Shown: piece after piece, positions 17,832 to 43,790 of the stretch
How positions within the stretch are numbered: position 1 is the first letter of the stretch
Layout of the letters: the number at the start of each line of letters is the position of its first letter
IMG/VR virus record: IMGVR_UViG_3300017917_001210
Location: 1 to 47,304 of that record
DNA: 47,304 nt
Strand: one strand, 5' to 3'
Source: a virus
Made by a program: the position numbers and the translations under genes
Notes under the pieces: model-generated
Database searches by the model: none
Told to the model about the DNA's origin: nothing
Seen by the model: only the letters and a program-made list of their open reading frames with translations

Positions 17832-19456
17832 TGGCACTTCCAAATAGAAATAACACCACTGACTATGTGCATCCGCAGGAAACAAACCTGCTGAATCTGC
17901 ACAAGGCCATGGAGTACGACCTTGGTGGCAAGCCCATGATTCGCGTTGCTGCAAAGTTATCTGGTCCTGGTATTGCCGGGCAGGTATCAGCGTTTGGCGA
18001 ACCTTTAGCAATTAGCCCTACCGCAGTTATTCAGCTAGACGGTATCTACGGCACCACTACTGATGTGATACAAACTTATACCAGTGGCACCGGATCAGTG
18101 GCCAATTCAGTTGCGGGCATGTTCCATGTGAGTTCAGGAACCACGCAAGGTGGATATGGTGTGTTGCGTAGCAAACGATTCATGCGCTATCGTCCCGGAC
18201 AAGGTATTGTGACAAGATTCACTGCAGAATTTACCACGGGCGTGGCTGGTAGCAGTCAGTTCGCTGGCCTGGCCAATCAAGAAAACAGACTGCAATTTGG
18301 TTATGATGGCGACAAGTTTGGTATTGTGCGAAGCACCGGTGGTCGAGCAACTATTTTATTAATGACCATGACCGCAGCACCCAATGCATCGCAAACTGCT
18401 ACCATTACCTTAAACGGTGTTGCCTATACTGTGGCCTTAACAAACAGTACCGTAGACCAAGCAGTGGTAGCAATAACCAATCGTGTAGGCGGCTACGGTG
18501 GTTGGTTGTTCCAACAAACTGATGGTGCCATGTTATGGTTAGCACCCACACTAGGTCCCATGAACGGCACATTCAGTTTTACCAGCACCGGTAATGCCAC
18601 TGCCACCTTTGAAGTCAAACAAGCAGGTATAGCACAAACCAACTACTGGACCTATCAAACGGATTGGAACATTGACCGCATGGATGGCAGTAATACTATT
18701 GATACCAATCCCAGTGGCATGACCCTGGATCCTACCAAACTAAATGTGTATCAGATTGCCATGCGTTGGCTAGGAGCCGGAACAATCAGTTATGCACTGG
18801 AGGATCAAGCATCAGGAACCTTGGTGTATGTTCACCGTGAGCACTATACCAATCAACATAATAGACCACACATAGACAATCCCAGTTTCAAAATAGCCTA
18901 CACGGCTGTAAACACCACTAATACCGCAAACCTAACTGTTCGAGGTGCCAGCATGTATGGTGCCGTGGAAGGTACCATATTCCAAAACGAATTGACACGT
19001 TCTTGGTCCACATCAAAAAGCGGACTCGCACAAAATGTCACGCACCACATGATGAGCATTAAAAACTCAGTGGTCACAAACGGCCTGGCTGGTGCCAACA
19101 ACGGTAACTATGTGCTCAACACCAAAGAAGCCATTATCAAAAGTTTAAGCGTGTCAGTGCAAAGCACAGACCCGTCACAGGTGTTTTTGTTTTTTGAACC
19201 CACGAGTTTTAGTAGCACATACACATACTTTAACATTCCTTACACCAATGAAGTGCATGCTGTAGATACTGGCACATTTAACAGTGCCATTGACACTCCC
19301 ATCTACACCGGACTGCTGGCTATTAATGGAACAGTCAACATCGATCTAAGTGCCTATCGTATCACAGTCCCGCCAGGCAGTTGGGTTAGCATAGCGGTTC
19401 GTAGTACCAATTCTGTGACACAGGCCACAGTGGCCCTGACTTGGTCAGAAGATTAA
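17831..19456 (+). CDS. Large virion protein, fibre or adhesin (541 aa)
   Basis: The ATG shares its A with the TAA of the previous gene. The protein is beta-rich and contains many Thr, Asn and Gly residues, with no signal peptide, membrane helix or clustered cysteines. Segments such as VLRSKRFMRYRPGQGIVTRFTAEF and YWTYQTDWNIDRMDG suggest jelly-roll-like domains of the kind seen in phage receptor-binding proteins. No catalytic site is evident. Coupling to the ILEI-domain gene suggests that the two act in the same fibre. Confidence 0.65.
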   Translation: MALPNRNNTTDYVHPQETNLLNLHKAMEYDLGGKPMIRVAAKLSGPGIAGQVSAFGEPLAISPTAVIQLDGIYGTTTDVIQTYTSGTGSVANSVAGMFHVSSGTTQGGYGVLRSKRFMRYRPGQGIVTRFTAEFTTGVAGSSQFAGLANQENRLQFGYDGDKFGIVRSTGGRATILLMTMTAAPNASQTATITLNGVAYTVALTNSTVDQAVVAITNRVGGYGGWLFQQTDGAMLWLAPTLGPMNGTFSFTSTGNATATFEVKQAGIAQTNYWTYQTDWNIDRMDGSNTIDTNPSGMTLDPTKLNVYQIAMRWLGAGTISYALEDQASGTLVYVHREHYTNQHNRPHIDNPSFKIAYTAVNTTNTANLTVRGASMYGAVEGTIFQNELTRSWSTSKSGLAQNVTHHMMSIKNSVVTNGLAGANNGNYVLNTKEAIIKSLSVSVQSTDPSQVFLFFEPTSFSSTYTYFNIPYTNEVHAVDTGTFNSAIDTPIYTGLLAINGTVNIDLSAYRITVPPGSWVSIAVRSTNSVTQATVALTWSED

Positions 19457-21501: not shown

Positions 21502-21854
21502 TGCACAGTAATTTTATTACACCGCCAGACCTAGTTGACAACGATCTTCCTACAGTGCTCATGATTGATGCTGCGTGGGACGATGTTGAAAACATAGCCT
21601 TGTTTTGTCAGAACAGCAAACGCTGTTATAATGTGTATCTGTACACTGACATCATGTTTGATGCAGAGTGGCTCGGAGACGCAGTAAAACGTGCTCATGC
21701 TATTATTCTAAACTCTGCTGAAAGTGGTTGCACACAGGACAAGAATCGTTTGCTAAAAGATCCTCGAACCTGGTACTATGGACCAAACAACTATCTAGGC
21801 AACACCAACCAATTGCGTAACCCTATAGATTTTTTTATCAAAGACAATGAGTGA
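21501..21854 (+). CDS. Conserved phage protein of unknown function (117 aa)
   Basis: The ATG overlaps the stop of the previous gene (TGATG) and the end overlaps the start of clpX by eight bases, so the three genes are translationally linked. The pattern LPTVLMIDAAWDDVENIALFC, then CYNVYLYTDIMFDAEWLGDAV, then HAIILNSA alternates strands and helices like a Rossmann-type or receiver-like alpha/beta domain. No catalytic motif is clear. Confidence 0.6.
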   Translation: MHSNFITPPDLVDNDLPTVLMIDAAWDDVENIALFCQNSKRCYNVYLYTDIMFDAEWLGDAVKRAHAIILNSAESGCTQDKNRLLKDPRTWYYGPNNYLGNTNQLRNPIDFFIKDNE

Positions 21855-23055
21855 TTCTTCTAATCATGTGCTGTGTAATTTCTGCGGCAAGAGTCGCAGC
21901 GAAGTTGACAAATTGATTGTGGCAAACGACGCCGGCATTTGCAACGAGTGTATTGAGTTCTGTGCTGACCTTCTTAGCATGGAACGTGTTAAGAATCTGC
22001 AGTCAGATAAAAAGATCAGCAAGGCCCTGGATCCAGTTAAGATACGCAAATATCTTGACGAGTTTGTGATTGGACAGGACCAAGCCAAGATTAGTCTAGC
22101 AGTGGCAGTGGTAAATCATTACAAGCGTGTGTTCTTTGAACCAGAAATCGAAGTAGAAAAAAGCAATCTGCTCATACACGGACCAACAGGTTCAGGCAAA
22201 ACACTGCTGGCAAAAACTGTGGCCAAGTATCTCAATGTGCCATTTGTGATTGCAGACGCCACAACACTAACACAGGCAGGGTATGTGGGCGATGATGTAG
22301 AAAGTGTGATCAGTAGACTACTGAGTGCAGCCGATAACGATGTTGAAAAGTGCCAACAGGGCATTGTTTTCATAGATGAAATTGATAAAATTGGTCGTAA
22401 AAGTGAAAGCAGCAACTTGCATCGTGATGTGGGCGGCGAAGGTGTACAACAGGCTCTGCTCAAGTTGGTAGAGGGTACTGTGTGTAATGTTACTGTGAAC
22501 AGCGGTAAAAAGCATCCTAGTTTAGACAGTGTGGAAGTAAACACATCAAACATTCTGTTTATTGCAGGTGGAGCGTTTGACGGTCTGGACAAGATTGTGT
22601 CCAGCAGACAAAAAGGCACAGGCATTGGCTTTACCACAGCAGCCACCAGCAGCACCGCAGAGCAGGTAGAAGTGCTGCCCGAAGACCTAATCAAGTTTGG
22701 CATGATTCCAGAGTTTGTGGGACGTTTTCCAATTGCAGTAGGCATTGACGCACTGGATCTAGAAGACCTGACCAGGGTGCTGATTGAACCCAAAAACAGT
22801 TTGATACAACAAATGCAGTGGTACTTTGCCACCGACGGAATACAGTTGGAGTTTGAAGACACTGCTATCCTTACTATTGCGCAAACAGCGTTGGATCGTA
22901 AGGTTGGTGCCCGTGGGCTCAAGGGCATTGTAGAACAAGCATTGATGAGCACCATGTATTCCTTGCAGGAACTCAAGCGCACAGGAATAAGTAAAGTACG
23001 CATAACCAGCGATGTAATAACCAAACAAAAGGAACCGGAATATTTAAAATCATGA
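21847..23055 (+). CDS. clpX: ATP-dependent protease ATP-binding subunit ClpX
   Basis: ClpX unfolds proteins and feeds them to ClpP. All main elements are present in 402 aa: the zinc-binding domain (Cys10, Cys13, Cys32, Cys35), Walker A GPTGSGKT at 112-119, pore loop GYVGD, Walker B with Asp177-Glu178, and the sensor-2 GARGLK. The ClpP-docking IGF tripeptide is kept at 260-262, so it should still bind a ClpP ring. A ClpP gene lies 21 kb downstream. The stop overlaps the ATG of the bS21 gene. Confidence 0.97.
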   Translation: MSDSSNHVLCNFCGKSRSEVDKLIVANDAGICNECIEFCADLLSMERVKNLQSDKKISKALDPVKIRKYLDEFVIGQDQAKISLAVAVVNHYKRVFFEPEIEVEKSNLLIHGPTGSGKTLLAKTVAKYLNVPFVIADATTLTQAGYVGDDVESVISRLLSAADNDVEKCQQGIVFIDEIDKIGRKSESSNLHRDVGGEGVQQALLKLVEGTVCNVTVNSGKKHPSLDSVEVNTSNILFIAGGAFDGLDKIVSSRQKGTGIGFTTAATSSTAEQVEVLPEDLIKFGMIPEFVGRFPIAVGIDALDLEDLTRVLIEPKNSLIQQMQWYFATDGIQLEFEDTAILTIAQTALDRKVGARGLKGIVEQALMSTMYSLQELKRTGISKVRITSDVITKQKEPEYLKS

Positions 23056-23574: not shown

Positions 23575-23631
23575 GTAAGATGCCTACGGGGTCTTACCAG
23601 TCATATTTTGCTTAAAGGAGAAAATAAAATG
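23575..23631 (+). promoter_or_regulatory. Possible ROSE/fourU-like RNA thermometer in the Hsp20 leader
   Basis: Hairpin I: GTAAGA (23575-23580) pairs with TCTTAC (23592-23597), with an inner CC-TACG-GG that gives a stable UNCG tetraloop. Hairpin II: TATTTT (23604-23609) pairs with AAAATA (23621-23626), G23610 is bulged, and CTT pairs with GAG across an AAAG loop. Hairpin II contains the Shine-Dalgarno sequence AAGGAG (23615-23620). A bulged G opposite the ribosome site and a UUGCU element are ROSE features. This is manual folding only. Confidence 0.55.
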
Positions 23632-24069
23632 GCTACTATCTTAACTCTTGACCTACCTACCCTGCATCGTCGCTTTATTGGTTTTGACCAATTTTTTGAC
23701 GAACTTGAACGCACGTTCCAAGTGCCCAAGCAGGACAATTACCCACCACACAACGTTATTCGCCAAAGCGAAAATCAGTTCAGCATTGAGCTGGCTGTGG
23801 CAGGCTTTGACGAGGACGAACTAGACGTCAGTTTGAGCAATCGTGTGCTAACCATTAAAGGTGAGCGTAAACCACGAGCAGCAACTGAGTCATGGGAATA
23901 CTTGCATCGTGGCATCGCCAGTCGCGATTTTGAACGCACCTTTCCATTGAACGACAATGTGGAAGTACGTGCCGTGACTGTGCGCAATGGCATCATGACT
24001 GTGAATCTGGAACTACTGGTTCCGGAGGAACAAAAAGCCAAAAAGATTGCAATTACGTTTGCCAAGTAA
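23629..24069 (+). CDS. Small heat shock protein (Hsp20/IbpA-like, 146 aa)
   Basis: I chose the ATG at 23629 (MATILTLDLPTLHRRFIGFD), eight bases after AAGGAG. The N-terminus with FIGFDQFFDELER and the alpha-crystallin domain (NQFSIELAVAGFDEDELDV, LTIKGER, HRGIASRDFERTFPL) are close to the IbpA/HspH family of bacteria. The protein binds unfolding proteins without ATP. It stands alone between a strong promoter and a terminator, and its leader may be temperature-sensitive. Confidence 0.95.
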   Translation: MATILTLDLPTLHRRFIGFDQFFDELERTFQVPKQDNYPPHNVIRQSENQFSIELAVAGFDEDELDVSLSNRVLTIKGERKPRAATESWEYLHRGIASRDFERTFPLNDNVEVRAVTVRNGIMTVNLELLVPEEQKAKKIAITFAK

Positions 24070-24120: not shown

Positions 24121-24441
24121 ATGAGCACAGATACACCAACCAAGGTACAAAACAATTTAAAAATTGAACCCAAGCTAAACATTCCTGAGCCTCGCATGTT
24201 TAAGGTTATTTTTATCAATGATGAAATTACCACAATGGAGTTCATTATTGAAACATTGAAGAACGTGTTTGACTACGATGAAGAAGATGCAAATGAAATG
24301 ACCATGCGTATTCATCAAGAAGGCGCAGCCATCGTTGCAGTTTATCCATATGAACTAGCGGAACAAAAAGGCATTGAAAGCACAGTACTGGCCCGTAACA
24401 ACGGTTTTCCATTGCAAGTTAAACTAGAACCAGAAGGTTAA
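24121..24441 (+). CDS. clpS: Clp protease adaptor ClpS (106 aa)
   Basis: The core (MFKVIFINDEITTMEFIIETL, then ANEMTMRIHQEGAAIVAVYPYELAE, then ARNNGFPLQVKLE) carries the ND-x-x-TTMEFV-type signature and the late helix and strand of ClpS. ClpS delivers N-end-rule substrates to ClpA/ClpC and blocks other substrates. No clpA is present here, so the phage adaptor would act on the host ClpA-ClpP machine. GAGGAATT precedes the ATG. Confidence 0.93.
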   Translation: MSTDTPTKVQNNLKIEPKLNIPEPRMFKVIFINDEITTMEFIIETLKNVFDYDEEDANEMTMRIHQEGAAIVAVYPYELAEQKGIESTVLARNNGFPLQVKLEPEG

Positions 24442-25669: not shown

Positions 25670-26119
25670 ATGAAGTTTCTAAGAACAGCAATGGCCGCTG
25701 TTTTACTACCCACTACAGTGTGGGCCGCTCCACTGGCCGATTATTCATTTAAAAGTCCTGCATTCAACGGAGTTGGATACAGTAGTCACGTGCTGACTAT
25801 TGAGAACCAAGAACACACACGTAGAGAAACACTAAGAAAAGATTTACAGGCTGCAATAGACAAAGCAGCAGCAGAAGCCAAGTCCAGTAACTTGAACAAG
25901 TTCTTAAACAACTTGGAATCACGTATCTATGCTCAGATCAGTCAAAACCTAGCAACAGCAATGTTTGCTGATGGTGGCAGCAACACCGGGTCATTGAATT
26001 TTGAAGGTAATACCATATCCTGGACCAAGGATAGCAGTAACGTATATCTAACTGTTACAGACCTAGTGGGTAATGTAACACAAATAACAGTACCATTAGG
26101 GCAATTTCAATTCCAATGA
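25670..26119 (+). CDS. csgF: CsgF-like curli assembly protein (149 aa)
   Basis: A signal peptide (MKFLRTAMAAVLLPTTVWAA) is followed by LADYSFKSPAFNGVGY, which matches the CsgF start (F-x-F-x-NPxFGG) that inserts into the CsgG channel. The middle helix and the final NVYLTVTDLVGNVTQITVPLG also follow the CsgF order. CsgF caps the CsgG pore and helps nucleate the fibre on the cell surface. The stop overlaps the CsgG start (ATGA), so the two are coupled as partners. Confidence 0.85.
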   Translation: MKFLRTAMAAVLLPTTVWAAPLADYSFKSPAFNGVGYSSHVLTIENQEHTRRETLRKDLQAAIDKAAAEAKSSNLNKFLNNLESRIYAQISQNLATAMFADGGSNTGSLNFEGNTISWTKDSSNVYLTVTDLVGNVTQITVPLGQFQFQ

Positions 26120-27363
26120 CAAAACTACTAACAACAATTTTATTAATAGGGTTATTGTCGGGTTGTGCAGTTACCCAAAATGATCGCATGGGCAAAGCTC
26201 CCAAGCCAGTGAACATGCCTGTGATGATGCAGAAAGAATTTGATGCAATTCGTGGCCCAGCCCACGGACAGCCTATTACAGTAGCACTGTATGGATTCAC
26301 AGATAAAACAGGTCAGCGTAGACCACAACAGAACATTGCCAGCCTGAGCACAGCAGTTACTCAAGGATCAGAAACATTCTTGATCAAGGCACTACAAGAC
26401 GTAGGGCAGGGTCGTTGGTTCAAAGTTGTAGAGCGTGTGGGCATTGACGGGTTAACTCGTGAACGCCAGCTGATTAGACAGATGCGCGAAGCCTACGAAG
26501 GATCGAACGCTAAACCTTTGCCGCCAATGACATTTGCTGGAATAATACTCGAAGGCGGTATTGTTGGGTACGATAGCTCAGTTAAATCTGGAGGCATGGC
26601 AGCACGTTGGTTGGGTATTGGGCCACAGACACAGTACAGTGAAGATATTGTTACTGTGAGTATTCGTGCTATCAGTGTAAGCTCAGGCGAAGTGTTGGCA
26701 GCAGTCACAGTACAAAAGACCATTGTGAGTGCAGCAGACAGCGTAGCAGCAATGAAGTTTTTTGACATGGGCACCAAGGCTTTTGAATTTGAAACTGGTA
26801 TGACAGTCAATGAGCCGGGGACATTTGCAGTCAAGAGTACCATTGAAATGGCAGTATTAGAGTTGATTAAAGAAGGTGCAAAGAGAAATGTATGGGCGTT
26901 TGACGCTGCCACACCAGCAGCAAGTCCAGCAATTCCTCCTGCAAAAGAGCAAAAGCCAGAACCGGTTCCTGAGAAAAAAGCAGAACCAGCACCTGTGCCT
27001 GAAGTTAAAAAAGAAAATCCGCCGGCCAAAACAGAACCAGCAGCTAAAGCAGAACCAGCGGTAACGGTTCCTGTTCCTGAGGTTAAACTGGCAATTACCG
27101 AGCAATCAGCAAACCCGCCCGCAGTTGATAAAAAAGAAGTAGACAAACATTTACCAGTGGTATATGTCAAGGGCACAACCTATTTGTATATGAAAAAAGA
27201 TCTTCATAGCAAACGACTGGGCTGGTTATCTACAGGCGTTGAGCTGACTGTGGCGGAAATGGATAATCATTGGGCAACCGTTGTTGACTCCATGGGTAGG
27301 CACGGGTTCGTTAGGAAGGCAGTATTAGTGTCCGAAAAACCTATAATAAGAAAAGGGCATTAG
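26116..27363 (+). CDS. csgG: CsgG-like outer-membrane curli secretion channel with SH3-like tail (415 aa)
   Basis: A lipoprotein signal peptide ends in LLSGC with Cys17 as the lipidated residue. Residues 35-255 carry the CsgG domain (ITVALYGFTDKTGQ, QDVGQGRWFKVVER, GGIVGYDSSVKSGG, GPQTQYSEDIVTVSIRAI), the nonameric pore that exports curli subunits. Unlike the 277-aa E. coli protein, it continues with a Pro/Glu/Lys/Ala-rich linker (about 260-345) and a C-terminal SH3-like domain (about 347-410) with VYVKGTTYLYMKKD and GRHGFVRKAVL. The extra part may bind peptidoglycan. Confidence 0.92.
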   Translation: MTKLLTTILLIGLLSGCAVTQNDRMGKAPKPVNMPVMMQKEFDAIRGPAHGQPITVALYGFTDKTGQRRPQQNIASLSTAVTQGSETFLIKALQDVGQGRWFKVVERVGIDGLTRERQLIRQMREAYEGSNAKPLPPMTFAGIILEGGIVGYDSSVKSGGMAARWLGIGPQTQYSEDIVTVSIRAISVSSGEVLAAVTVQKTIVSAADSVAAMKFFDMGTKAFEFETGMTVNEPGTFAVKSTIEMAVLELIKEGAKRNVWAFDAATPAASPAIPPAKEQKPEPVPEKKAEPAPVPEVKKENPPAKTEPAAKAEPAVTVPVPEVKLAITEQSANPPAVDKKEVDKHLPVVYVKGTTYLYMKKDLHSKRLGWLSTGVELTVAEMDNHWATVVDSMGRHGFVRKAVLVSEKPIIRKGH

Positions 27364-27385: not shown

Positions 27386-28162
27386 ATGAAAATAAAATTT
27401 CTAGCAGCAGTGTTAATGCTAGGGATTACTAATTATATTCAAGCAGGTGACAATAAAGTATATATCGACCAAGTTGGTGATCGTAGCACAATAGCAATAA
27501 CCCAGGATGGGTCTAGTAACTTAGTAAAAGGCGTGGGTACCGCACAGGATACCAATGCTAAAATTCACGGCGATGACGCCGCAGTAACAATAACGCAGAC
27601 AGGAGCAGCCAACCAGCTGGTACTGGGCGTCAATGGTGGTGCCTTGGGCTCTAACAACATAGTTTCCTACACAGTAACAGGTAACTTAGGAAATGCCACT
27701 ATTGACTGTAACAACGCTGATACCGGCAAGTGTAATGCTAACAACATTGGCATCACACAGGTTGGTAACAACTCTTTGGCTACAGTAACCGTTAATGGCG
27801 AAAACAACGTGGTGACTGGTACTACCACTGGTGGTAACAATAACCAGTTGTATTTCAATATCACAGGTGACGGCTTGCATCCAAGCATTGCTATCACAGG
27901 TGGTGGCAACAGCGGCAGTATCACCATGGCGCCAACAGCAGGTATCAATGCCACAGCCACTATGACCATTACTGGTTCTAGCAACAACGTGAGCATTAAC
28001 CAAACAGGCGGAGCCGTGCTTGGACATACTGCACAACTAGGAATCAGTGGCAGCGGTAACACCGTAACAGTTGTTCAGACAGGTACAGCAGGAGACAATT
28101 TGTTTAACTTGACCAGCTCTGGCAGCAGCAATTCTATCACTGTTAATCAAAACACGCAGTAA
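27386..28162 (+). CDS. Secreted curlin-repeat protein, amyloid subunit candidate (258 aa)
   Basis: A signal peptide (to about residue 20, IQA-GDN) is followed by several curlin-like units of the S/N-x-I/V-x-I-x-Q-x-G-x-x-N type, for example NKVYIDQVGDRSTIAITQDG, AAVTITQTGAANQ, NNIGITQVGNNS and NNVSINQTGG. These Gln/Asn ladders form the amyloid beta-rungs in CsgA and CsgB. The ribosome binding site is GAAAGGAG. By position after CsgG it is the likely CsgA- or CsgB-type substrate of the channel. Confidence 0.85.
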   Translation: MKIKFLAAVLMLGITNYIQAGDNKVYIDQVGDRSTIAITQDGSSNLVKGVGTAQDTNAKIHGDDAAVTITQTGAANQLVLGVNGGALGSNNIVSYTVTGNLGNATIDCNNADTGKCNANNIGITQVGNNSLATVTVNGENNVVTGTTTGGNNNQLYFNITGDGLHPSIAITGGGNSGSITMAPTAGINATATMTITGSSNNVSINQTGGAVLGHTAQLGISGSGNTVTVVQTGTAGDNLFNLTSSGSSNSITVNQNTQ

Positions 28163-28174
28163 CCGGGAGAGGAA

Positions 28175-29284
28175 GTGAAACTATGCCGCATCGTCATCTT
28201 AGAACTATCGCTGATATTATTCGCGAGCAGCACACACGCTGGAATAGGAAAGATTACCGATCAAGTAAACACCCCAGCTTCGATACAACGACAGAAAACG
28301 ATGCTGAATGGGACGAAAGGTACAGCCCTGGAGATGCAAGATGCAGTGCGGACTGCCCAGGGAAAAGTTCAGATAACTTTTGATGACGAGACCAAGGTAC
28401 AGATCACTGAAAACAGTAAGTTAGTTATAGATGATTTTGTTTACGATCCTAACAGCAAGAAAGGCGGAAAACTTGCTGTTAATATCGCACTAGGCACAGT
28501 ACGTTATGCCAGTGGACAAATTGCAAAAAACAATCCTCAAGCAGTAGCAGTTAACACTCCTTCAGCCACAATTGGTGTGCGTGGCACAGACTTTACAGCA
28601 GCAGTAGACGAACTAGGACGCAGTACCATTGTGTTGCTGCCCAGCTGTCCAGTCGGTTGGCGCGATATTAAAACAGATTGTAAAACTGGTGAGATCAGTG
28701 TAACCTCAGATGAGGGCACTGTTATCATGAATCAACCCTTTCAAGCAACCACAGTGACCACAAGAGAAACCAGGCCCATGAAACCGGTTATTCTCAAACT
28801 TGATGAGGATCAAATCAACAATCTGTTGATCCTTACTCCAATCAAGGGAGAACCAACCAGAGAAGAACGCATGGACACTCGCAAGGGTTTTTTAGATGTG
28901 GATTTTTTAAAATTTGAAGGACTGGGCAATGCTCTAGAAGCGCAGGATCCTTTCAAATACAGCAAGTTGGATGTTAACTTTTTGGAACGAGAATTCTTGG
29001 TTAACATTCTGGACATGGTAGACGCCATGATCAAAGCACAAATGGATTACCTGGAAAATGCCAATGCCAAGCTACTACCAGACTACGTGGCACTCACAGG
29101 TGTAAGAGCAGTTATTGAAGATCCAATTGTACAGCTATGTCGCGAAGATAACAGCAGCAATGTGGCCTGTGTGCAGGTATTACAGACCAGAGATGTAACC
29201 ATTACGATCATACAAGAACGCATGGAGTTTAAGAATCGTGTGAACGCAGGTGGTATAAGCAATATAACTATTACACAAAACTAA
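28175..29284 (+). CDS. Secreted FecR-domain protein (369 aa)
   Basis: The start is GTG after GGGAGAGG. A signal peptide ends near HAGIG. Residues 30-195 are a FecR-type beta-helix domain (TALEMQDAVRTAQGKVQITF, SKLVIDDFVYDP, VNTPSATIGVRGTDFTAAV). The C-terminal half is charged and helical and the last residues (GGISNITITQN) resemble one curlin rung. There is no N-terminal sigma-regulator region, so this is a secreted structural or adaptor use of FecR, perhaps at the fibre base. Eleven bases separate it from the curlin-repeat gene. Confidence 0.8.
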   Translation: MKLCRIVILELSLILFASSTHAGIGKITDQVNTPASIQRQKTMLNGTKGTALEMQDAVRTAQGKVQITFDDETKVQITENSKLVIDDFVYDPNSKKGGKLAVNIALGTVRYASGQIAKNNPQAVAVNTPSATIGVRGTDFTAAVDELGRSTIVLLPSCPVGWRDIKTDCKTGEISVTSDEGTVIMNQPFQATTVTTRETRPMKPVILKLDEDQINNLLILTPIKGEPTREERMDTRKGFLDVDFLKFEGLGNALEAQDPFKYSKLDVNFLEREFLVNILDMVDAMIKAQMDYLENANAKLLPDYVALTGVRAVIEDPIVQLCREDNSSNVACVQVLQTRDVTITIIQERMEFKNRVNAGGISNITITQN

Positions 29285-29285
29285 T

Positions 29286-29873
29286 ATGAGACTTCCTACA
29301 ATTATTTTCTTCTCGTTGTTTTTACTTGCATGCGGATTGGCATTTGCAGACAATTCAATCACAGTGAATCAAGTGGGCAGTTCTAACACTATTAACATTG
29401 AGCAAGTGGGAACCAAACACAAGGTCACCGTGAACATGGGACAAACAACAGACGTGGACAACACTACGTTGACCATATTACAGCAGGGCACAGGAGCAAA
29501 AACTGCCACAGTTTCTATTCCGTCAGGAATTAACAACAGCGTTAATATACAGCAGGATGGTGCTGGAAATCACTTGGCCAGCATACAGAATTTAAACGGC
29601 TCTGGCAACGGTATAACCGTGAATCAATCAGGTGCAGGCAAACATGAGTTTAATGTGGTAGTAGGTGCAGGCACTACAAACAACGGAAATACTATTACCG
29701 CTACACAAGCAGGCGGTACAGGATCAGACAAGTGGTTTAATGTTTGGTTAAATGGAGCAACAGGAGCAACTGTCAATGTGGTACAGGACAATGCAAACAC
29801 CGCAGATCAAGCCAGCATGAACGTACAGTGCATGCCCGGAACCTGTGGAACATTCGGATACATTAAACACTAG
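29286..29873 (+). CDS. Second curlin-repeat secreted protein (195 aa)
   Basis: A signal peptide ends at LAFADN. The mature part has curlin-type rungs (NSITVNQVGSSNTINIEQVG, NSVNIQQDGAGNHLASIQN, NGITVNQSGAGK, NTITATQAGG). The C-terminus has a CMPGTC pair and ends FGYIKH, which could be a disulphide-closed cap. With the first curlin-repeat protein it makes a two-subunit set like CsgA/CsgB, but I cannot tell nucleator from major subunit. It follows the FecR gene by one base. Confidence 0.85.
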   Translation: MRLPTIIFFSLFLLACGLAFADNSITVNQVGSSNTINIEQVGTKHKVTVNMGQTTDVDNTTLTILQQGTGAKTATVSIPSGINNSVNIQQDGAGNHLASIQNLNGSGNGITVNQSGAGKHEFNVVVGAGTTNNGNTITATQAGGTGSDKWFNVWLNGATGATVNVVQDNANTADQASMNVQCMPGTCGTFGYIKH

Positions 29874-29885: not shown

Positions 29886-30215
29886 ATGAAAAAACTAGCC
29901 ATGGCTGCTATCCTACTAGCACTGGTATCACAGGGTTATGCTCGAGACAAAACAATACAAGTTACCTGTGGCACCAAGGAAGAATGGGTAATGACAGCCA
30001 ACAAATATGGCGAAGAATTGGTTATTGCGGCTCCCGCACCAAACAGAGAAACCATAGTGAGTCTATGGGTAAACTTTGCCACAGGGTCATCCAGCTGGGT
30101 AACTCATGTGGTAGCAACAGACGAATGGTGTATGACAGGCATAGGGGAGAAATTGCTAATACCAAAAGACAGTCCGTTGAATAATTTAACAGGAACAAGA
30201 GTAATATACAAATAA
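29886..30215 (+). CDS. Small secreted protein of the curli-type locus (109 aa)
   Basis: A signal peptide (MKKLAMAAILLALVSQGYA) is followed by a 90-residue beta-rich mature domain with two cysteines (VTCGTKEEW and EWCMTG) that could form a disulphide. The size and single beta-sandwich look recall periplasmic curli accessory proteins such as CsgC or CsgE, but no diagnostic motif supports either. It is the last gene before the operon terminator. Confidence 0.6.
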   Translation: MKKLAMAAILLALVSQGYARDKTIQVTCGTKEEWVMTANKYGEELVIAAPAPNRETIVSLWVNFATGSSSWVTHVVATDEWCMTGIGEKLLIPKDSPLNNLTGTRVIYK

Positions 30216-30237
30216 CCTCGCTAGTCGAGGTTTTTTT
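30214..30237 (+). terminator. Rho-independent terminator of the curli-type operon
   Basis: A 7-bp stem AACCTCG / CGAGGTT with loop CTAGT is followed by a run of T. It overlaps the last codon of the small secreted protein. Confidence 0.9.
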
Positions 30238-30360: not shown

Positions 30361-30366
30361 TAAATA
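30361..30366 (+). promoter_or_regulatory. T4-late-like element upstream of the autotransporter
   Basis: AGTCGTAAATATCTAAG lies 69 bases before the ATG at 30436. The A-rich leader that follows ends in a strong site (AGAAGGAGCTAAAAATC). Confidence 0.5.
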
Positions 30367-30435
30367 TCTAAGTAGAACCCTAGGCAGTTAAAAAAATAAA
30401 AATAAAGGGACTACACTTAGAAGGAGCTAAAAATC

Positions 30436-32799
30436 ATGCGTAAACTATTGACTAAGGTCATTCTGGCCTTAGGTATCGCCTTTGCCCCTGTGGCTCAGGC
30501 AGACCTAGTTGACGGACATTTTAGTACTAATCAAATTTTTGATGTACAGTATTATTGGTCCGGCACAACTCTAAACGCAAGTAACTTTATCGCTCCGTAC
30601 GATATGAATTTTCAACATCCTACGGTAGCAGCTGGAGACTACTTTGCGTTTTTCCCAAGTACCACAAATCCCGGAACATATGGCATGGGGCTGTATAATT
30701 CCTCAGGAACGCTATTACAAGTCGTACACGACACCGGTACACTACAAGCCATTGGCCCAGATGCTATTTTTTATGTAGGATCAGGATTCTTTGGTACAGT
30801 GATTACTACCAGTGCAGGATACGCATATGGTGCCAGCGGTACATTTACCAATATGGATACCAGTGTGTCTGGAACTGATGCCAGTTCATACACCTGGGCT
30901 AGTACCACTCCACTGACAGCAGGTCAAACTGCCAGCAGCGGTGGCGGTAGCGGCGGTGGAACAACAACACCTACACCAACCTATACAGCAATTACCAGTG
31001 CAAATGTTGTGCAAGTTACTCCGACCAGTAACAACAGCCCAGCAGGTGAAGGTGCTACCAATGTGATTGATGGCAACACAGGCACAAAGTATTTGAACTT
31101 TGACCGTGCAAGTGCAGGTTTCACTATTAAACTGGACCAAGGTCGAGTAATTGAGAAATTCACAATTACCACAGCTAACGACTACTCTCCACGTGACCCA
31201 AGCAAGTTCAGCTTGTTTGGATCAAACGATGGACGTACTTGGACCACAATCGCTAACAATCAAAGTATAACATTAAGTGATAATCGTTTTACCACATCCA
31301 GCGACATTGTTGTGGCCAATACCAATGCTTATGTGTATTACTTTATTACTTTTGATTCCACCAAAGCCTTGGATCAATATCCAGTGTTGGCATCCTGTAT
31401 GGCAGCATACGGTGGTGGTTGGCTAGGTACCGAAAACTGTAACAGTGTTCAAGTATCAGAAGTCAAGTACTACTATGACAGTGCAAACAACACTACCAGT
31501 GTTGATGCTGGTAACGGTACTGTGGCTAACCCAGGAACAGCTGGTGCTACATCCAGTTTGAACACTGGCCCAACTGTGGTTGGTACTGCTCCAGGTGCAA
31601 ACATTGTATCCACAACAGAAACACCAGGCACAATGGTAACAAATACCAACAGCACACGCGGCACAACCACATCGGTTACCACTGTAAACGATGCACGTGG
31701 CGCACAGGAAACCAAACGTTTGGAAGTGGTTAGAACCACAACAGTGACTTCTACTACTCCAATCACCACAGTGGTTACACAGACAACACCAGTTACTGTT
31801 ACTACCGTGACCACACCAACTACTGTGACAACCTACAGTGATGGTACTACCACTACTACAAATGGTACTCCAGTAACCACAGTCGCAATCAGAACTGATG
31901 TGATCACAACAACCACAACTACCAATGAAGTTGTTAGTTCTTCCAGCGATCAGAGCTACTTTACCAAGATTGATCAGTACAGTAACCTGGCAGCAGTTAA
32001 CCAAAGACTTAACGCAGCATTGGACAGTGATGTTCTAGATCGTCACAAAGGATCTAGCGAAACTCTTGTAACTCGCAGCAATGCAGCGGGCAATGAGGAA
32101 AAAGGTTGGTGGTATCTAATTGCTGAAGGACAGCGTTCTAACACAGTAGACACATACTCCACTAAAACCAATCGTTATGGATTTGGACATGAGAAAAAGG
32201 TACGTGGTAACTGGATAGTTGGTTTACAATACAACCATCTAAGCAGCACCATGGCTGGTCTGGATGCAGGCGGCGGTTTGGTCAAAGACCACGTGGGTAT
32301 CTACAGTCTGTACAATCACAATGGTTGGTTGTTGAAAACTGATTTGGCATACAGCCAGAACAGCTTTACCAACTATCATTCATTGCCAGAACTGAACTAC
32401 AGCAACTCAGGCAAAACCGCAGGTAATGATATCTGGTTGAGCAACAGACTATACACTCCAGAGTTCAAAGGGTTCCGTCCTTTTGCTGGTGTACGTGTAG
32501 AGAACAACAAGCGCAACGAACTAACAGAAACTGGTTCTGCTATCACTGCAATGAACTATGCTGCTGTTAACCAAACTCGCACAGTAGGCGAAGTTGGTTT
32601 GCGTTATGATGTTGCAATCAGAGAGCGAGTGAACTTTATCGCAGAAGCCAGTCAAACTGACACAAGCCTTACAACTGTTAAGGTCGGTGTAAACTTTGCA
32701 CCAAAAGAACGTGTTATCGGTGGCGTAAGCGTGGTTCAACAAAGCCAAAACGGCGTACAAAATACTCTAGGTCAAGTATCTTTACGTTGGATATTCTAA
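30436..32799 (+). CDS. Autotransporter with discoidin domain and outer-membrane barrel (787 aa)
   Basis: A signal peptide ends at VAQADL. An N-terminal beta domain with a PEP-CTERM-like or surface-protein look (30-160) is followed by a Gly/Ser linker, then a discoidin (F5/8 type C) fold at about 185-305 (GEGATNVIDGNTGTKYLNF, PSKFSLFGSNDGRTWTTI). Residues 350-510 are a Thr/Val low-complexity stalk. The last 250 residues are an autotransporter-type barrel (GFGHEKKVRGNWIVGLQYNH, ending LGQVSLRWIF with a terminal Phe). The protein would display a sugar-binding passenger on the host surface. Confidence 0.85.
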   Translation: MRKLLTKVILALGIAFAPVAQADLVDGHFSTNQIFDVQYYWSGTTLNASNFIAPYDMNFQHPTVAAGDYFAFFPSTTNPGTYGMGLYNSSGTLLQVVHDTGTLQAIGPDAIFYVGSGFFGTVITTSAGYAYGASGTFTNMDTSVSGTDASSYTWASTTPLTAGQTASSGGGSGGGTTTPTPTYTAITSANVVQVTPTSNNSPAGEGATNVIDGNTGTKYLNFDRASAGFTIKLDQGRVIEKFTITTANDYSPRDPSKFSLFGSNDGRTWTTIANNQSITLSDNRFTTSSDIVVANTNAYVYYFITFDSTKALDQYPVLASCMAAYGGGWLGTENCNSVQVSEVKYYYDSANNTTSVDAGNGTVANPGTAGATSSLNTGPTVVGTAPGANIVSTTETPGTMVTNTNSTRGTTTSVTTVNDARGAQETKRLEVVRTTTVTSTTPITTVVTQTTPVTVTTVTTPTTVTTYSDGTTTTTNGTPVTTVAIRTDVITTTTTTNEVVSSSSDQSYFTKIDQYSNLAAVNQRLNAALDSDVLDRHKGSSETLVTRSNAAGNEEKGWWYLIAEGQRSNTVDTYSTKTNRYGFGHEKKVRGNWIVGLQYNHLSSTMAGLDAGGGLVKDHVGIYSLYNHNGWLLKTDLAYSQNSFTNYHSLPELNYSNSGKTAGNDIWLSNRLYTPEFKGFRPFAGVRVENNKRNELTETGSAITAMNYAAVNQTRTVGEVGLRYDVAIRERVNFIAEASQTDTSLTTVKVGVNFAPKERVIGGVSVVQQSQNGVQNTLGQVSLRWIF

Positions 32800-32859: not shown

Positions 32860-34902
32860 ATGAAAAAACTTCTATTAAACCCATGGACTGCACTGATTAC
32901 CTTGGCATTGGTACTAGGCATTCGTATATCCGATACCGCATTTGTAGAGTCAGTTAGACTGCGCTACTTTGACACACTGATCACAAGCAAGGCGCCAACA
33001 GAAAATAACATATACACGGTGAACATTGATGAAGCCACATTGGACAAATATGGCCAATGGCCTTTGCCAAGAGGCCAGTATGCTGAACTAATTGACGAAC
33101 TCTTCAAGAGAAACGCTGGACTGGTAGTGTGGACCATACTCATGCCAGAGCTGGATCGCAACGGTCAGGACAATGACCTATCGTATGCTTTGGCCACAAA
33201 CCCTGTTATTCTCAGCAGTGTGCCCAGTAACACATCCAAGAATCCCCCAAGACAGGTGGGTGTCAGTATTATGCGTCCTGAATTTACAGACCGCATTGTA
33301 CAGTATCCAGGCATGATATCTAATATAGAGGCCCTGAGCAGTCAAGCCGCAGGTGTGGGTATTGCCGGAACATTACCTGAGGTTGATGGTGTTAATCGTA
33401 GATTGCCTCTGGTGGTCAGCGTGAATGATGTGCTGTATCCAAGCGTGTCACTGGAAACACTACGAGTGGCAGCGGGTGATCCTAGTTTTCAAATCAAGCT
33501 GAACGAGAATGGTGTAGAGAAAATGCGCATTCCGCAGTTTGGTCCTATCGCCACAGACAACCTAGGGCGCATCTGGATTGACTGGAGCCAGCGCAGCCAG
33601 TCTGTGAGCGCAGCAAAGCTGCCAAAAGATTTTAACAAGGCCATTGTGATTGTGGGTACCAGTGCCGCAGGATTGGGTAACCCAGTGCCCACCAGCATTG
33701 GAGCAGTATGGCCTCAGGATGTGCATGCCAGCGTGATTGGCACTATGGTCAATGGAGTTACCATACAGCGACCGGACTACGCAGATGGGCTGGAAATACT
33801 TGCAATACTTGCTGCTGGTGTTATACTGCTAGCGTTAACCAGGTGGGTGTATGTTGGTCTAGCATCTGTGGTAGTTCTTGTTGGTGGATTCGCATACGGC
33901 AGCTACTATGCTTTTGCTACAGATCTTTGGCTGTTTGATGTTACCGCACCAATTGCAGGAGTTATCCTGGTTGCACTACACGCATACGGTGTGAAGTTCG
34001 TAAGCGAGTTCTTGCAGAAACAACAGATCAAGAAACAGTTTGGCAGCTATGTGAGCCCTGTTATCGTTGAGAGATTACAAAAAGATCCTAGTTTAATTAA
34101 ACTGGGCGGCGAAGAAAAGATGCTTACAGCAGTGATGACAGACATGCGCAACTTCACAGGACTAGGTGAAAAGTACGGCGCAGACGTTGAAGGCTTTACC
34201 GCTATCATGAACGCATACATGACAGCTATCAGCAAACCTGTGTTTGCCAACGATGGTTGTTTGATCAAGTTCATTGGTGATGCCAGCTTGCACATTCATG
34301 GTGCACCGGTAGACGACAATCGCCATGCTTACCGTGCTGCGCAAACAGCCATTGAAATGGTACAGGCCGTGGACGAGTTTAACAAGCACCTGCACAGTAT
34401 TGGCAAGCCACCAGTGGGTATGGGTGCTGGTGTTAACACAGGAAAGATTCTTGTAGGTAACATTGGATCAGAAGGCAAGATGGGATACGATGTACTAGGC
34501 GATCCTGTGAGCGTGGCCAGTCGACTGGAAGGTCAGACCAAGGGCTATGGAGTATTGTTGATCATTGGACCTGACACCTATGCAGAAGTTAAAAATGATT
34601 TCCATTGCTTTGAACTAGATTGCATTGCAGTCAAAGGCAAAGACATTGGATTGAATATCTATACACCACTGTTTAATCCTGCCAACTTCAATCAACATGA
34701 TGCCGACAGACATGCAAGCATGCTGGCTGCATACAGAGCTCAGGACTGGAGAGCGGCAACTGCAATTACCAAGAGTTTGATTGGCTGCTTTGGTGGCGAA
34801 TTGGACCACTACTATGAACTGTGGCTAGAGCGTATTGCAGCAACAAAGAAAATGAAATTACCAACAGACTGGGACGGAATCTACCGTGCTACTAGCAAAT
34901 AA
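32860..34902 (+). CDS. CHASE2-domain class III adenylate/guanylate cyclase (680 aa)
   Basis: An N-terminal helix, a periplasmic CHASE2 sensor (about 25-315; VNIDEATLDKYGQWPLPRGQY) and three membrane helices (about 315-380) precede a class III cyclase domain (about 405-600). Both metal aspartates are present, Asp428 (TDMRNFT) and Asp474 (KFIGDAS). The Lys in IKFIGD and Asp548 region favour ATP, but Ser551 replaces the usual transition-state Asn while Arg555 is kept (PVSVASRLE). The enzyme probably makes cAMP in response to an envelope signal. A C-terminal helical tail follows. Confidence 0.93.
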   Translation: MKKLLLNPWTALITLALVLGIRISDTAFVESVRLRYFDTLITSKAPTENNIYTVNIDEATLDKYGQWPLPRGQYAELIDELFKRNAGLVVWTILMPELDRNGQDNDLSYALATNPVILSSVPSNTSKNPPRQVGVSIMRPEFTDRIVQYPGMISNIEALSSQAAGVGIAGTLPEVDGVNRRLPLVVSVNDVLYPSVSLETLRVAAGDPSFQIKLNENGVEKMRIPQFGPIATDNLGRIWIDWSQRSQSVSAAKLPKDFNKAIVIVGTSAAGLGNPVPTSIGAVWPQDVHASVIGTMVNGVTIQRPDYADGLEILAILAAGVILLALTRWVYVGLASVVVLVGGFAYGSYYAFATDLWLFDVTAPIAGVILVALHAYGVKFVSEFLQKQQIKKQFGSYVSPVIVERLQKDPSLIKLGGEEKMLTAVMTDMRNFTGLGEKYGADVEGFTAIMNAYMTAISKPVFANDGCLIKFIGDASLHIHGAPVDDNRHAYRAAQTAIEMVQAVDEFNKHLHSIGKPPVGMGAGVNTGKILVGNIGSEGKMGYDVLGDPVSVASRLEGQTKGYGVLLIIGPDTYAEVKNDFHCFELDCIAVKGKDIGLNIYTPLFNPANFNQHDADRHASMLAAYRAQDWRAATAITKSLIGCFGGELDHYYELWLERIAATKKMKLPTDWDGIYRATSK

Positions 34903-34914
34903 TTGGATAGACTT

Positions 34915-35772
34915 ATGCGTAAGTACATACCTATACTGCTACTTCTTTCCTTATTATTTCATGGGGCAAGTGTCGCAAAAACACCAGCCAGTACCAACGA
35001 CCTAACAGCCAAAAGCTGGTTGGTAACTGACAGCGAAGGAAATCTCATTGCAGGTGAGAATGTGCATGCGGTACGCAGTATTGCCAGCGTGACCAAGTTG
35101 ATGACTGTGCTCACAATACTGGACAGGCATGCAGAACTGGATCGTCCACTGGACCTAACCATGCGTAACTATAATAAGAAAACACGCAAGGCCAAGCGCA
35201 GTGCATATGATAACCTCACTCGTAGACAGTTGATTGACCTAGCCATGATTCGCAGCGACAACAATGCGGCCAGGTTGTTGTGCGAAACATATCCTGAAGG
35301 ATACAAAAAGTGCATTGATGACATGAATGCCAAGGCGCACAGTTTAGGTATGTTGTACAGTGTGTTCTACGATCCTACAGGACTAGATGACAGAAACAAC
35401 AGCACAGCCGCAGACCTGGTCAAGTTGGCCAGAAGTGCAGTGAACTATCCTGAAGTGGTAAATGCCAGTCAGCAGAGTCAGATCAAGGTAAAGATCAAAC
35501 GTCACTGGTTTGCAGGACACAACACAAATCCACTGATCGGCAACACGCATGACATCAAGGTCAGTAAGACTGGGTGGACCACACGAGCTGGTGGGTGTAT
35601 TTTGATGCTAATGGACACAGACAAAGGACGCAGGATCGTTGTGGTATTGGGCAGTAAGAGTATCAAGACTCGAATACCTGAAGCAGAGTTTATATCTCGG
35701 ATTGATGAAACAGCGGTGGTTGAAAAAGAGCCTAATACACTGTTTGGTATCAGGCTCTTTGGCAGCGATTAA
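34915..35772 (+). CDS. D-Ala-D-Ala endopeptidase, PBP7-like (S11 family, 285 aa)
   Basis: I chose the ATG at 34915 (MRKYIPILLLL); a TTG at 34903 would add four residues. A signal peptide ends near SVAKT. The three penicillin-binding motifs are present: SVTK at 58-61, SDN in MIRSDNNAA, and KTG in VSKTGWT. The short length without the C-terminal anchor domain matches PBP7 (PbpG), which cleaves peptidoglycan cross-links in the periplasm. It begins 12 bases after the cyclase, so the two may share one mRNA. Confidence 0.92.
   Translation: MRKYIPILLLLSLLFHGASVAKTPASTNDLTAKSWLVTDSEGNLIAGENVHAVRSIASVTKLMTVLTILDRHAELDRPLDLTMRNYNKKTRKAKRSAYDNLTRRQLIDLAMIRSDNNAARLLCETYPEGYKKCIDDMNAKAHSLGMLYSVFYDPTGLDDRNNSTAADLVKLARSAVNYPEVVNASQQSQIKVKIKRHWFAGHNTNPLIGNTHDIKVSKTGWTTRAGGCILMLMDTDKGRRIVVVLGSKSIKTRIPEAEFISRIDETAVVEKEPNTLFGIRLFGSD
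35725..35760 (-). terminator. Terminator for the minus-strand membrane genes, inside the PBP7-like gene
   Basis: On the minus strand AAAGAGCCTGATAC pairs with GTATTAGGCTCTTT (one mismatch) and is followed by TTC after a T tract. It lies within the last codons of the convergent PBP7-like gene, and may stop both transcripts. Confidence 0.7.
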
Positions 35773-38715: not shown

Positions 38716-39747
38716 ATGACTGTTAAACGCATTGGCTTTGCATGCAAATGGATCAACGGCCCTGATGAAATTGCAGGCGCAAAACCAGCTAGCACAGACC
38801 ACAACACACGATCTACCACAGTGGCCTGGCTTAACCGTCAGCCCAAAGACGAAGCTGTGCAACGACTGTGGGACATTGTGCAGCATAACATTTCCTCAAC
38901 TCGCAAACTTGTAGAAAAGGTAGGCACCCATGAGCATTCATTACGTATGGTTCGGATTGGCAGCGATATTCTTCCTATGTACACTCAGCCTGATTGGGGC
39001 TGGTTTTATCAGCAACCGGATGTTAGAGCTTATGCCCAGCAGCATTTTGCAGAAGTGGGACGGCTGGCTCGCGCCCTTGACGTGCGCCTTAGTTTTCATC
39101 CTGGCCAGTTCTGTGTTCTTGCAAGTGACAACGACAATATTGTTGAACGTAGTATTGAAGAGTTTGAATATCACGCCGATGTAGCACGTTGGATGGGCTA
39201 TGGTGCCACATGGCACGATCACGGATTTAAGATTAACGTACATTTAAGCGGACGCGGTGGGTCCGATAAGTTCCTTACAACACTGGGCAGACTTTCGCCT
39301 GAGGCTAGGAATCTAATTACCATCGAGAATGATGAGATGAAATATGGATTGGATTATACTCTTGCTGTCAGTAAACATGTGGCTCTTGTTCTCGATATAC
39401 ATCATCACTGGGTCAACTCGGGGGAGTATATTGCGCCGACAGACGATCGTGTTCGCGCTGTTATTGACAGTTGGCGTGGTACTCGTCCTGTTCTGCACTA
39501 CTCTGTTAGTAGGGAAGATATTCTTGTGGATCATTGTGCCGGATCTAGGCCCGATCTTGCAGGACTTATTGCGGGAGGCCATAAGAAACAACAACTTCGC
39601 GCACACAGTGATTTCTACTGGAACCAATCTGTGAATGAGTGGGCATTAGAGTTTACAGACCAGTTTGATCTCATGTGCGAATCAAAAGCCAAAAATTTAG
39701 CCAGCTTTGCATTACACAAGCTGGCTAAAGAAAAGAATATAATTTAA
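38716..39747 (+). CDS. uvsE: UV-damage endonuclease (UVDE/UvsE family, 343 aa)
   Basis: The TIM-barrel UVDE pattern is clear: RIGFACKWI at the first strand, MVRIGSDILPMYT, SFHPGQFCVLAS, NVHLSGRGG, TIENDEMKYG, LVLDIHHHWVN and LHYSVSRE, with metal-binding His and Glu residues at the expected strand ends. The enzyme nicks DNA 5' to UV photoproducts and starts excision repair. Length is normal. A sigma70 promoter suggests early expression, useful for a sunlit-water phage (inference). Confidence 0.95.
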   Translation: MTVKRIGFACKWINGPDEIAGAKPASTDHNTRSTTVAWLNRQPKDEAVQRLWDIVQHNISSTRKLVEKVGTHEHSLRMVRIGSDILPMYTQPDWGWFYQQPDVRAYAQQHFAEVGRLARALDVRLSFHPGQFCVLASDNDNIVERSIEEFEYHADVARWMGYGATWHDHGFKINVHLSGRGGSDKFLTTLGRLSPEARNLITIENDEMKYGLDYTLAVSKHVALVLDIHHHWVNSGEYIAPTDDRVRAVIDSWRGTRPVLHYSVSREDILVDHCAGSRPDLAGLIAGGHKKQQLRAHSDFYWNQSVNEWALEFTDQFDLMCESKAKNLASFALHKLAKEKNII

Positions 39748-40104
39748 TTACTTCTTTGGTTTGGCAGGCTTCTTGGCCGGTGCTGGTTTTTTAGCTAGTG
39801 CCGGCTTTTTCACGGTCTTGGCTGTTTTGGTAGCTGGCTTTTTGGCTGCTACTTTTTTAGCTGCTGTTTTGGCTTTTGTAGCAGTTTTCTTAACCGCTGC
39901 AACTGCATCAGCTGCATTCACCTTGCCGTCTTTGTTTACGTCTGCAACTTTGGCAACTGTTTGTGTTAACACTGGAGCAACTGCACTCAGGTCTTCTTTA
40001 GTAACTTTGCCATCTTTGTTGATGTCCAAAGGTTTAGACGTATTGTTAACGTAGAGCAAGTAACCCACGGCAACTAATACTACTAGGCCAATGATAATTT
40101 CCAT
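39748..40104 (-). CDS. Membrane-anchored dockerin-like/EF-hand protein with histone H1-like tail (118 aa)
   Basis: An N-terminal membrane helix (MEIIIGLVVLVAVGYLLYV) is followed by two calcium-loop motifs, DINKDGKVTKED and DVNKDGKVNAAD, spaced as in a dockerin pair. The last 50 residues are a Lys/Ala/Pro-rich repeat tail (AAKKVAAKKPATK) like histone H1 or bacterial Hc1. The tail could bind DNA or an anionic cell-wall polymer. Function unknown. The stop abuts the UVDE stop, and the gene has its own TAAATA element. Confidence 0.8.
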   Translation of the reverse strand: MEIIIGLVVLVAVGYLLYVNNTSKPLDINKDGKVTKEDLSAVAPVLTQTVAKVADVNKDGKVNAADAVAAVKKTATKAKTAAKKVAAKKPATKTAKTVKKPALAKKPAPAKKPAKPKK

Positions 40105-43260: not shown

Positions 43261-43303
43261 GCCCTCGCTATGCTGTTAAATACAGCAAAGTGGAGGGCTT
43301 TCT
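43261..43303 (+). promoter_or_regulatory. Hairpin with late promoter in its loop, hiding a ribosome binding site
   Basis: GCCCTC (43261-43266) pairs with GAGGGC (43293-43298), and inside it TGCTGT (43271-43276) pairs with ACAGCA (43282-43287). The TAAATA element (43277-43282) occupies the loop. The outer 3' arm contains the Shine-Dalgarno GGAGGG of the SprT-like gene, and TTTCTT follows, so the hairpin may also terminate upstream transcripts. A transcript starting from TAAATA would lack the 5' arms. Confidence 0.7.
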
Positions 43304-43304
43304 T

Positions 43305-43790
43305 ATGGCTAGACCAAATCCTATCAGACGCATCATGGAATGTGCGTTACCCAGCATTACGTATCAAAGACGTAGGCTGTTTAGAGTGGGGCCAGAAGAA
43401 GTCAAATATGCGTATAAAATAATCAACAAATATGTGTTTGATAACAAACTGCATCGCCCGCCCATTGAAATAGGTATTACCCGAGACTACTGGGGAATAT
43501 GTGAGGGCCTGGATTATGAAACAGGTCACAATACCTACTCTAAACTAAAGATCAGCGACAAGTACTTTTGCGCCCAGTGGTTCATGAATGTGCTAGCACA
43601 CGAAATGGCCCATCAATATCAATGGGACATTGTTACTCCTGCTCGCGAACAAGAAGGCATGCAGCCCGTACTGAGTCATGGTCCAACCTTCTTTATGTGG
43701 CGTGAAGAGTTTGAGTACTACGGACTACATCTAAAAACCGCCCACGGACAGCGCCGCTGGTTTTTGCATCAAGATTTCAATAAGTGTTGA
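43305..43790 (+). CDS. SprT-like zinc metalloprotease (161 aa)
   Basis: I chose the ATG at 43305, seven bases after GGAGGG; the GTG frame start at 43290 lies within the hairpin. The active site is HEMAH at 99-103 with a downstream SHGPTFFMW that can supply the third ligand, as in SprT/Spartan domains. Spartan-type enzymes cleave DNA-protein cross-links. The N-terminal domain (YKIINKYVFDNKLHRPPIEIG) also fits. No zinc ribbon is seen. The substrate is unknown. Confidence 0.85.
   Translation: MARPNPIRRIMECALPSITYQRRRLFRVGPEEVKYAYKIINKYVFDNKLHRPPIEIGITRDYWGICEGLDYETGHNTYSKLKISDKYFCAQWFMNVLAHEMAHQYQWDIVTPAREQEGMQPVLSHGPTFFMWREEFEYYGLHLKTAHGQRRWFLHQDFNKC

Follow-up and report, generated by a model that had tools for sequence, protein, structure and literature searches.

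Why would a virus carry a gene whose product looks designed for anchoring in a bacterial outer membrane, and does this gene belong to the virus at all? The question is raised by one gene, hereafter AT, in a 47-kb linear virus record (47,304 nt, all of which was analysed and is referred to as the window). An inspection of the DNA alone (the sequence-only reading) had taken AT for a phage-encoded autotransporter displaying a discoidin domain, and this identity is borne out by the open reading frame, the PF00754 and PF03797 matches, and the AlphaFold2 fold. Positions of AT, its domains, and its neighbours are given in Table 1.

Architecture of the autotransporter

The reading frame of AT is uninterrupted: 787 codons with zero internal stops extend from the ATG at 30436 to the stop codon at 32797–32799, and a Shine-Dalgarno sequence AAGGAG is found at 30421–30426, upstream of the start codon. 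The signal peptide, MRKLLTKVILALGIAFAPVAQA with D as the next residue, was delimited by inspection and alignment, with no SignalP run. The F5/8 type C (discoidin) domain satisfies both the profile criterion (PF00754, 34.5 bits, E 2.5e-8, cut-off 28.2) and the jelly-roll fold criterion, its model yielding Z 16.9 with the matching region of the GH92 enzyme 7nsn and Z 14 with CBM32 and galactose oxidase; ligand binding is not covered by these criteria.

Table 1. Predicted features in and around the autotransporter gene (window positions; residues refer to the AT protein)
Feature	Position	Strand	Evidence or remark
CsgF	25670–26119	+	PF10614, 50.5 bits
CsgG, outer-membrane curli pore	26116–27363	+	PF03783, 153.5 bits
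Curlin1, curlin-repeat protein	27386–28162	+	PF07012, 25.2 bits
FecR-domain protein	28175–29284	+	PF04773; phrog_37870, E 5e-125
Curlin2, short headless curlin-repeat protein	29286–29873	+	PF07012, 25.8 bits
Small exported protein directly 5' of AT	29886–30215	+	
Intrinsic-terminator-like hairpin before AT	30214–30232	+	7-bp stem, then T run
TAAATA, T4-late-promoter-like, 75 nt before AT	30361–30366	+	Enrichment; like positions in several relatives
AT, 787-aa autotransporter, predicted surface protein	30436–32799	+	ORF, Shine-Dalgarno, Pfam, AlphaFold2, fold search
AT signal peptide, residues 1–23	30436–30504	+	Basic n-region, hydrophobic core, AQA end; common to relatives
ND, phage-specific N-terminal head, residues 24–165	30505–30930	+	Conservation, all-beta model
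AT discoidin / F5/8 type C (CBM32-like) domain, residues 188–358	30997–31509	+	PF00754, fold search
Thr-rich stalk with TYSDGT motif, residues 370–512	31543–31971	+	53 of 143 residues Thr (37%)
Pore helix, residues 514–528	31975–32019	+	AlphaFold2
12-stranded autotransporter barrel, residues 558–787, terminal Phe	32107–32796	+	PF03797, AlphaFold2, Z to NalP
CHASE2 adenylate/guanylate cyclase	32860–34902	+	PF05226, PF00211, phrog_35576
S11 D-Ala-D-Ala peptidase	34903–35772	+	PF00768

PF03797 scores 53.3–53.7 bits, about double the cut-off of 26; a 221-aa piece of AT matched it, and it was returned by hmmscan neither on the full-length protein nor on a 270-aa C-terminal piece. Since the 221-aa piece matched, this looks like a filter effect, and absence of the barrel, as implied by the searches with long pieces, is ruled out by this match and by the fold. 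The AlphaFold2 model has 12 strands and a pore helix (pLDDT mostly 80–96); in the fold search the barrel yields Z 28.3 with AaaA, 27.5 with NalP and 25.8 with EstA, and the structural alignment with NalP starts at residue 511, near the predicted pore helix. The C-terminal residues are SLRWIF, that is, with the terminal aromatic Phe expected for type Va. With the single-chain 12-strand barrel (PF03797), pore helix, Sec signal peptide and terminal Phe, the type Va criteria are met, and the assignment is well supported in sequence and predicted structure; the surface exposure of the passenger is inferred, in the absence of localisation data. The intact signal peptide, the threonine-rich stalk and the terminal barrel ending in Phe, all noticed in the sequence-only reading, have been recovered, and the outcome that would have refuted it, a structure prediction with no barrel, did not appear.

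Three other assignments were rejected. A YadA-type trimeric (Vc) autotransporter is ruled out by the entire 12-strand barrel in one chain and no YadA Pfam match; a curlin (CsgA/B-like) fibre subunit, by the absence of PF07012 from AT, though it is present in curlin-tailed relatives; and the tail-fibre reading of the discoidin domain, by the signal peptide and the barrel.

AT shares the 12-strand barrel, pore helix, signal peptide and terminal Phe with NalP, EstA, AaaA and BrkA (type Va), the identity in the barrel being 12–16%. It differs from them in being phage-encoded and in its passenger, which consists of ND, discoidin domain and Thr-rich stalk rather than a classical beta-helix or protease. 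Closer in sequence are autotransporter-like proteins of the Synechococcus phages DSL-LC03 and DSL-LC02, also phage-encoded, with barrel and stalk approximately 30–34% identical to those of the window; unlike AT, they have an HTNSIGY-type head and no curli neighbours, and adjoin lysis genes. Together with 55 viral contigs these two phages constitute a second family (L004, L005, L055–L109) sharing this type of head, Phe-terminal in 49 of the 50 reading frames not cut by a contig end. Hence, the earlier statement that phages rarely carry outer-membrane barrels can be kept only in a weakened form.

The N-terminal head and its anchors

The most conserved part of AT is ND, approximately 140 aa at the N terminus. 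Its mean column identity is 83% in eight close phage sequences, and 22 other sequences are 53–88% identical to the window version. The pN/pS ratio of the ND coding region is about 0.12–0.14 in comparisons with four of seven relatives and 0.18–0.28 with the other three, as against 0.37–0.65 for the barrel and 0.38–0.76 for the stalk, ND being lower in every full-length comparison. Judging by these ratios, selection constrains ND more strongly than it does the barrel and the stalk, and the AT coding sequence is under purifying selection. The sequence-only reading should be corrected in two respects: the discoidin domain is, in the sequences compared, optional among ND proteins, the conserved part being ND instead, and AT is not isolated but stands in a curli/FecR/cyclase cluster.

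ND is predicted to be all-beta (model pTM 0.72). No match to it has been found in Pfam, PDB or BFVD, and no usable structural match was obtained (best Foldseek E 0.04, best VIA-align Z 3.7, best BFVD E 0.12), which does not prove a new fold.

Besides the window, ND is encoded by 41 viral records, several of them contigs of 100–355 kb and some in the range of 190–355 kb; terminase was found in three of the eight largest ND records tested. The 355-kb sister phage record G001 carries a terminase, an AT 58% identical to that of the window, and a virion protein 80% identical to the one encoded at 17831–19456. No relative of ND has been confirmed in a pattern scan of approximately 85,000 prokaryote genomes, which can miss distant relatives; a second scan, with the cyclase, confirmed no relative either. 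ND was also not found in any INPHARED phage, the ND set consisting of metagenomic fragments. The barrel alignment (A3) was too diverse for scanning, and its comparison with A9 was not used, being circular (cyanophage proteins occur in both). Host contamination is unlikely for AT and was rejected, given the viral ND records, the terminases, the virion protein of G001 and the lack of a confirmed ND relative in the pattern scan; nor did that scan turn up the same gene in a host chromosome, which would have refuted the sequence-only reading.

Among the 42 ND sequences, the window included, 17 are curlin-tailed, 24 are of the barrel type (subtypes A, B and C with 13, 4 and 7 sequences, respectively), and one is too short to tell; one sequence of subtype A (L007), cut off in the stalk, was assigned to the barrel type by hand. 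Of the representative records, 28 were of sufficient length for assessment; among these, CsgG accompanies 11 of 11 curlin-tailed versus 6 of 17 barrel-tailed cases (Fisher p 0.0009, kinship uncorrected). AT is not tied to the curli cluster: barrel-anchored ND without CsgG is observed in G001 and others, and in the 338-kb phage record G002 it lies away from the curli genes. The second curlin of the G002 cluster resembles Curlin2 of the window in being short and having no head.

As all curlin-tailed ND proteins in the records judged adjoin CsgG, and several barrel-tailed ones lack it, one ND head appears to be exported to the surface by two unrelated routes. Moreover, since the same head rides curlin repeats with CsgG and CsgF in relatives, it may be regarded as the conserved business end, and the anchor as exchangeable. 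The discoidin domain is likewise found with curlin repeats, PF07012 and PF00754 being joined in single phage proteins of L026 and L033. The ND tree requires two changes between curlin and barrel, but only one of them is imposed by branches with good support. For a tree-aware test of anchor versus CsgG, just one or two independent pairs were available, too few. Still, as far as can be told from sequences, the interchange of anchors is clear; how often swaps happened is not shown by the tree.

Gene neighbourhood and the slot after FecR

The order of genes around AT is CsgF, CsgG, Curlin1, FecR, Curlin2, small exported protein, AT, CHASE2 cyclase, S11 peptidase. As CsgF, CsgG, curlin, FecR and cyclase are all in the window, the criterion of a phage curli/FecR/cyclase cluster is met. 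Clusters of this kind have been described in phages of SAR11 and in Melnitz, a phage of OM43 (PMC7029224, PMC9599517, PMC9004378), and the T8SS clusters of pelagiphages (HTVC008M) and Melnitz agree with the window in gene order, with CsgF, CsgG, curlin-repeat proteins, FecR and a cyclase of the CHASE2 type. The window differs in having a discoidin-bearing autotransporter between FecR and the cyclase. The word "autotransporter" does not occur in these three papers, and neither PA14 nor discoidin occurs in the text of PMC9599517.

In four relatives (L009, L010, L016, L017) curli genes are absent, and the small exported protein and AT are preceded by the same genes; in three of them the same S11 peptidase follows AT (the contig of L010 stops within AT), so that this peptidase stands 3' of AT both with and without curli. 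Therefore, either the AT locus is older than the curli genes that surround it in the window, or curli have been lost elsewhere, the direction not being shown.

The terminator-like hairpin sets AT apart from the preceding genes, and a similar one lies 5' of AT in L009, L010 and L016. The TAAATA motif occurs at 13 sites of the window (e.g., 4092, 23564, 25580 and 30361) and is enriched in the noncoding DNA immediately before genes, on the coding strand. In short gene-upstream stretches nine plus-strand copies are observed versus 1.7 expected from shuffles, and only 1 of 2000 shuffles reached this number. Although inferred from a six-base motif, it is likely a T4-late-type promoter of the window phage. 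No Rfam match has been found within the window.

Six phage cyclase homologues have been compared: CHASE2 aligns in all, and the cyclase domain of the window protein differs from the near-identical one in the other five. The pattern of the window sequence looks like domain exchange.

Phage-type FecR is found at no fewer than 552 loci in viral contigs, and in 77 of the best 80 of these (L123–L202) CsgG shares the locus. From these best 80 loci, 32 proteins encoded after FecR were collected, and that of HTVC008M was added; among the resulting 33, PF07012 is present in 12, PA14 in 10, GLEYA in five, and F5/8 in three. The protein of the cultured pelagiphage HTVC008M (AGE60352, L002:10067–11392), annotated as hypothetical, comprises PA14 and curlin repeats, the one of L199 is a barrel with a different head, and nine curlin-tailed proteins of the slot share a stalk motif of the TYSDG type. 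In relatives of the window, ND and/or other heads (discoidin, PA14) fused to curlin repeats or to a barrel are found between FecR and the cyclase, and the order FecR, head protein, cyclase is common to curlin-tailed and barrel-tailed loci. From their domain content, we read the slot after FecR as a putative display site for adhesin-type heads.

We consider it reasonably probable that large phages have a surface-display system of their own, in which ND, to which discoidin or other adhesin modules may be joined, is exported via a type V barrel or curli amyloid from one shared operon slot, curli being a carrier for adhesin heads.

Proposed role and alternatives

The purpose of phage curli is debated, with an uptake pore, a lysis timer, sibling capture and exclusion having been suggested (PMC7029224, PMC9004378, PMC9599517). 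The slot encodes adhesin-type heads on amyloid or barrel, and one head persists across export routes, which suggests that display on the cell surface is what selection has favoured. For AT itself, the balance tips slightly towards an outer-membrane-anchored adhesin. From established type V biology, it would be exported by Sec; BAM would assist insertion of the barrel in the host outer membrane, and the passenger would pass through it to the outside, ND forming the far end. Expression would be late in infection, if the six-base motif is indeed a phage promoter, the displayed head would bind surface glycans, and infected cells or their envelopes could be tethered to neighbouring potential hosts (cf. 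"sibling capture", PMC7029224). Late expression, glycan binding and tethering are all inferred, with no binding or localisation data, and the functions that the sequence-only reading put forward as possible (cross-linking of cells, masking of phage receptors, recruitment of new hosts) are likewise conjectural. That other heads in the slot are of adhesin types (PA14, GLEYA, F5/8) agrees with this role, while Melnitz, which has a curli cluster, did not clump in culture (PMC9004378). We rank adhesion to neighbours as most likely, ahead of both superinfection exclusion and trans-envelope sensing via FecR and the cyclase.

In the case of superinfection exclusion, the displayed head would mask or occupy phage receptors on the infected cell, so that rivals could not adsorb. 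We regard this as unlikely, yet deserving consideration: surface display itself is well supported by the barrel match, model and fold search (without localisation data), varied heads of glycan-binding type would suit masking of varied receptors, and a barrier of curli against rival phages has been proposed (PMC9599517). What weakens it is the timing, and also the high conservation of ND in phages that are only distantly related, where a head that masks receptors would be expected to diversify. Superinfection exclusion is usually early, and the late-type promoter motif fits this poorly.

Trans-envelope sensing, in which the head, FecR and the CHASE2 cyclase would relay an outside ligand as a cyclic nucleotide setting host state or lysis timing, seems decidedly improbable. 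The FecR and cyclase genes flank AT, phage FecR is very common, as the above count shows, and FecR stands beside a CHASE2-like cyclase without curli in Ruegeria and Rhizobium plasmids. However, barrel-anchored ND loci L009, L016 and L019 have no detectable FecR or cyclase, and the AT barrel lacks the plug of a FecA-type transducer.

A virion-associated or released protein, whether through cleavage of the passenger or because a tail-fibre-like protein has been misread as secreted, is very doubtful: discoidin domains are known in phage tail proteins (a weak phrog_17517 match; the LKA1 tailspike, PMC5701251), but it is contradicted by the signal peptide, the pore helix and a barrel of 12 strands that ends in Phe, and the neighbours of AT are export genes, not tail genes. 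Least credible of all is a host gene without a phage role, brought in by assembly error or generalised transfer: autotransporters are indeed common in bacteria, but the viral ND records with their contig sizes and terminases, the genome scan, purifying selection on AT and the phage promoter motif all speak against it.

There is nothing new in autotransporters, discoidin domains or phage curli clusters as such. As far as the open-access literature shows, the new elements are a phage autotransporter inside a curli cluster, a head that is specific to phages and for which no relatives could be detected, and the mounting of one head on anchors of both type V and type VIII; no published description of the AT protein was found in an open-access literature sample covering phage autotransporters, discoidin, curli, FecR and PA14. 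These data suggest that viruses may remodel the surface of the infected cell, with one head on a barrel or, in related viruses, on an amyloid fibre. Surface display can be tested via this autotransporter, since a single gene is much simpler to express than an entire curli system.

Several other genes of the window deserve mention. Dockerin type I / EF-hand repeats, which are unusual in a phage, occur in a small protein encoded on the minus strand (39748–40104). A UvdE UV endonuclease is found at 38716–39747, and a SprT-like protein, slightly below the cut-off, at 43290–43790. Genes for Hsp20 (23608–24069), ClpS (24121–24441) and a ClpX-like ATPase with a zinc finger (21847–23055) are clustered, possibly forming a phage proteolysis module. 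The large and small subunits of class I ribonucleotide reductase are encoded at 7549–9846 and 9866–10990, and a tailspike-like protein with a pectate-lyase fold and an Mtd_N domain, at 5432–7072.
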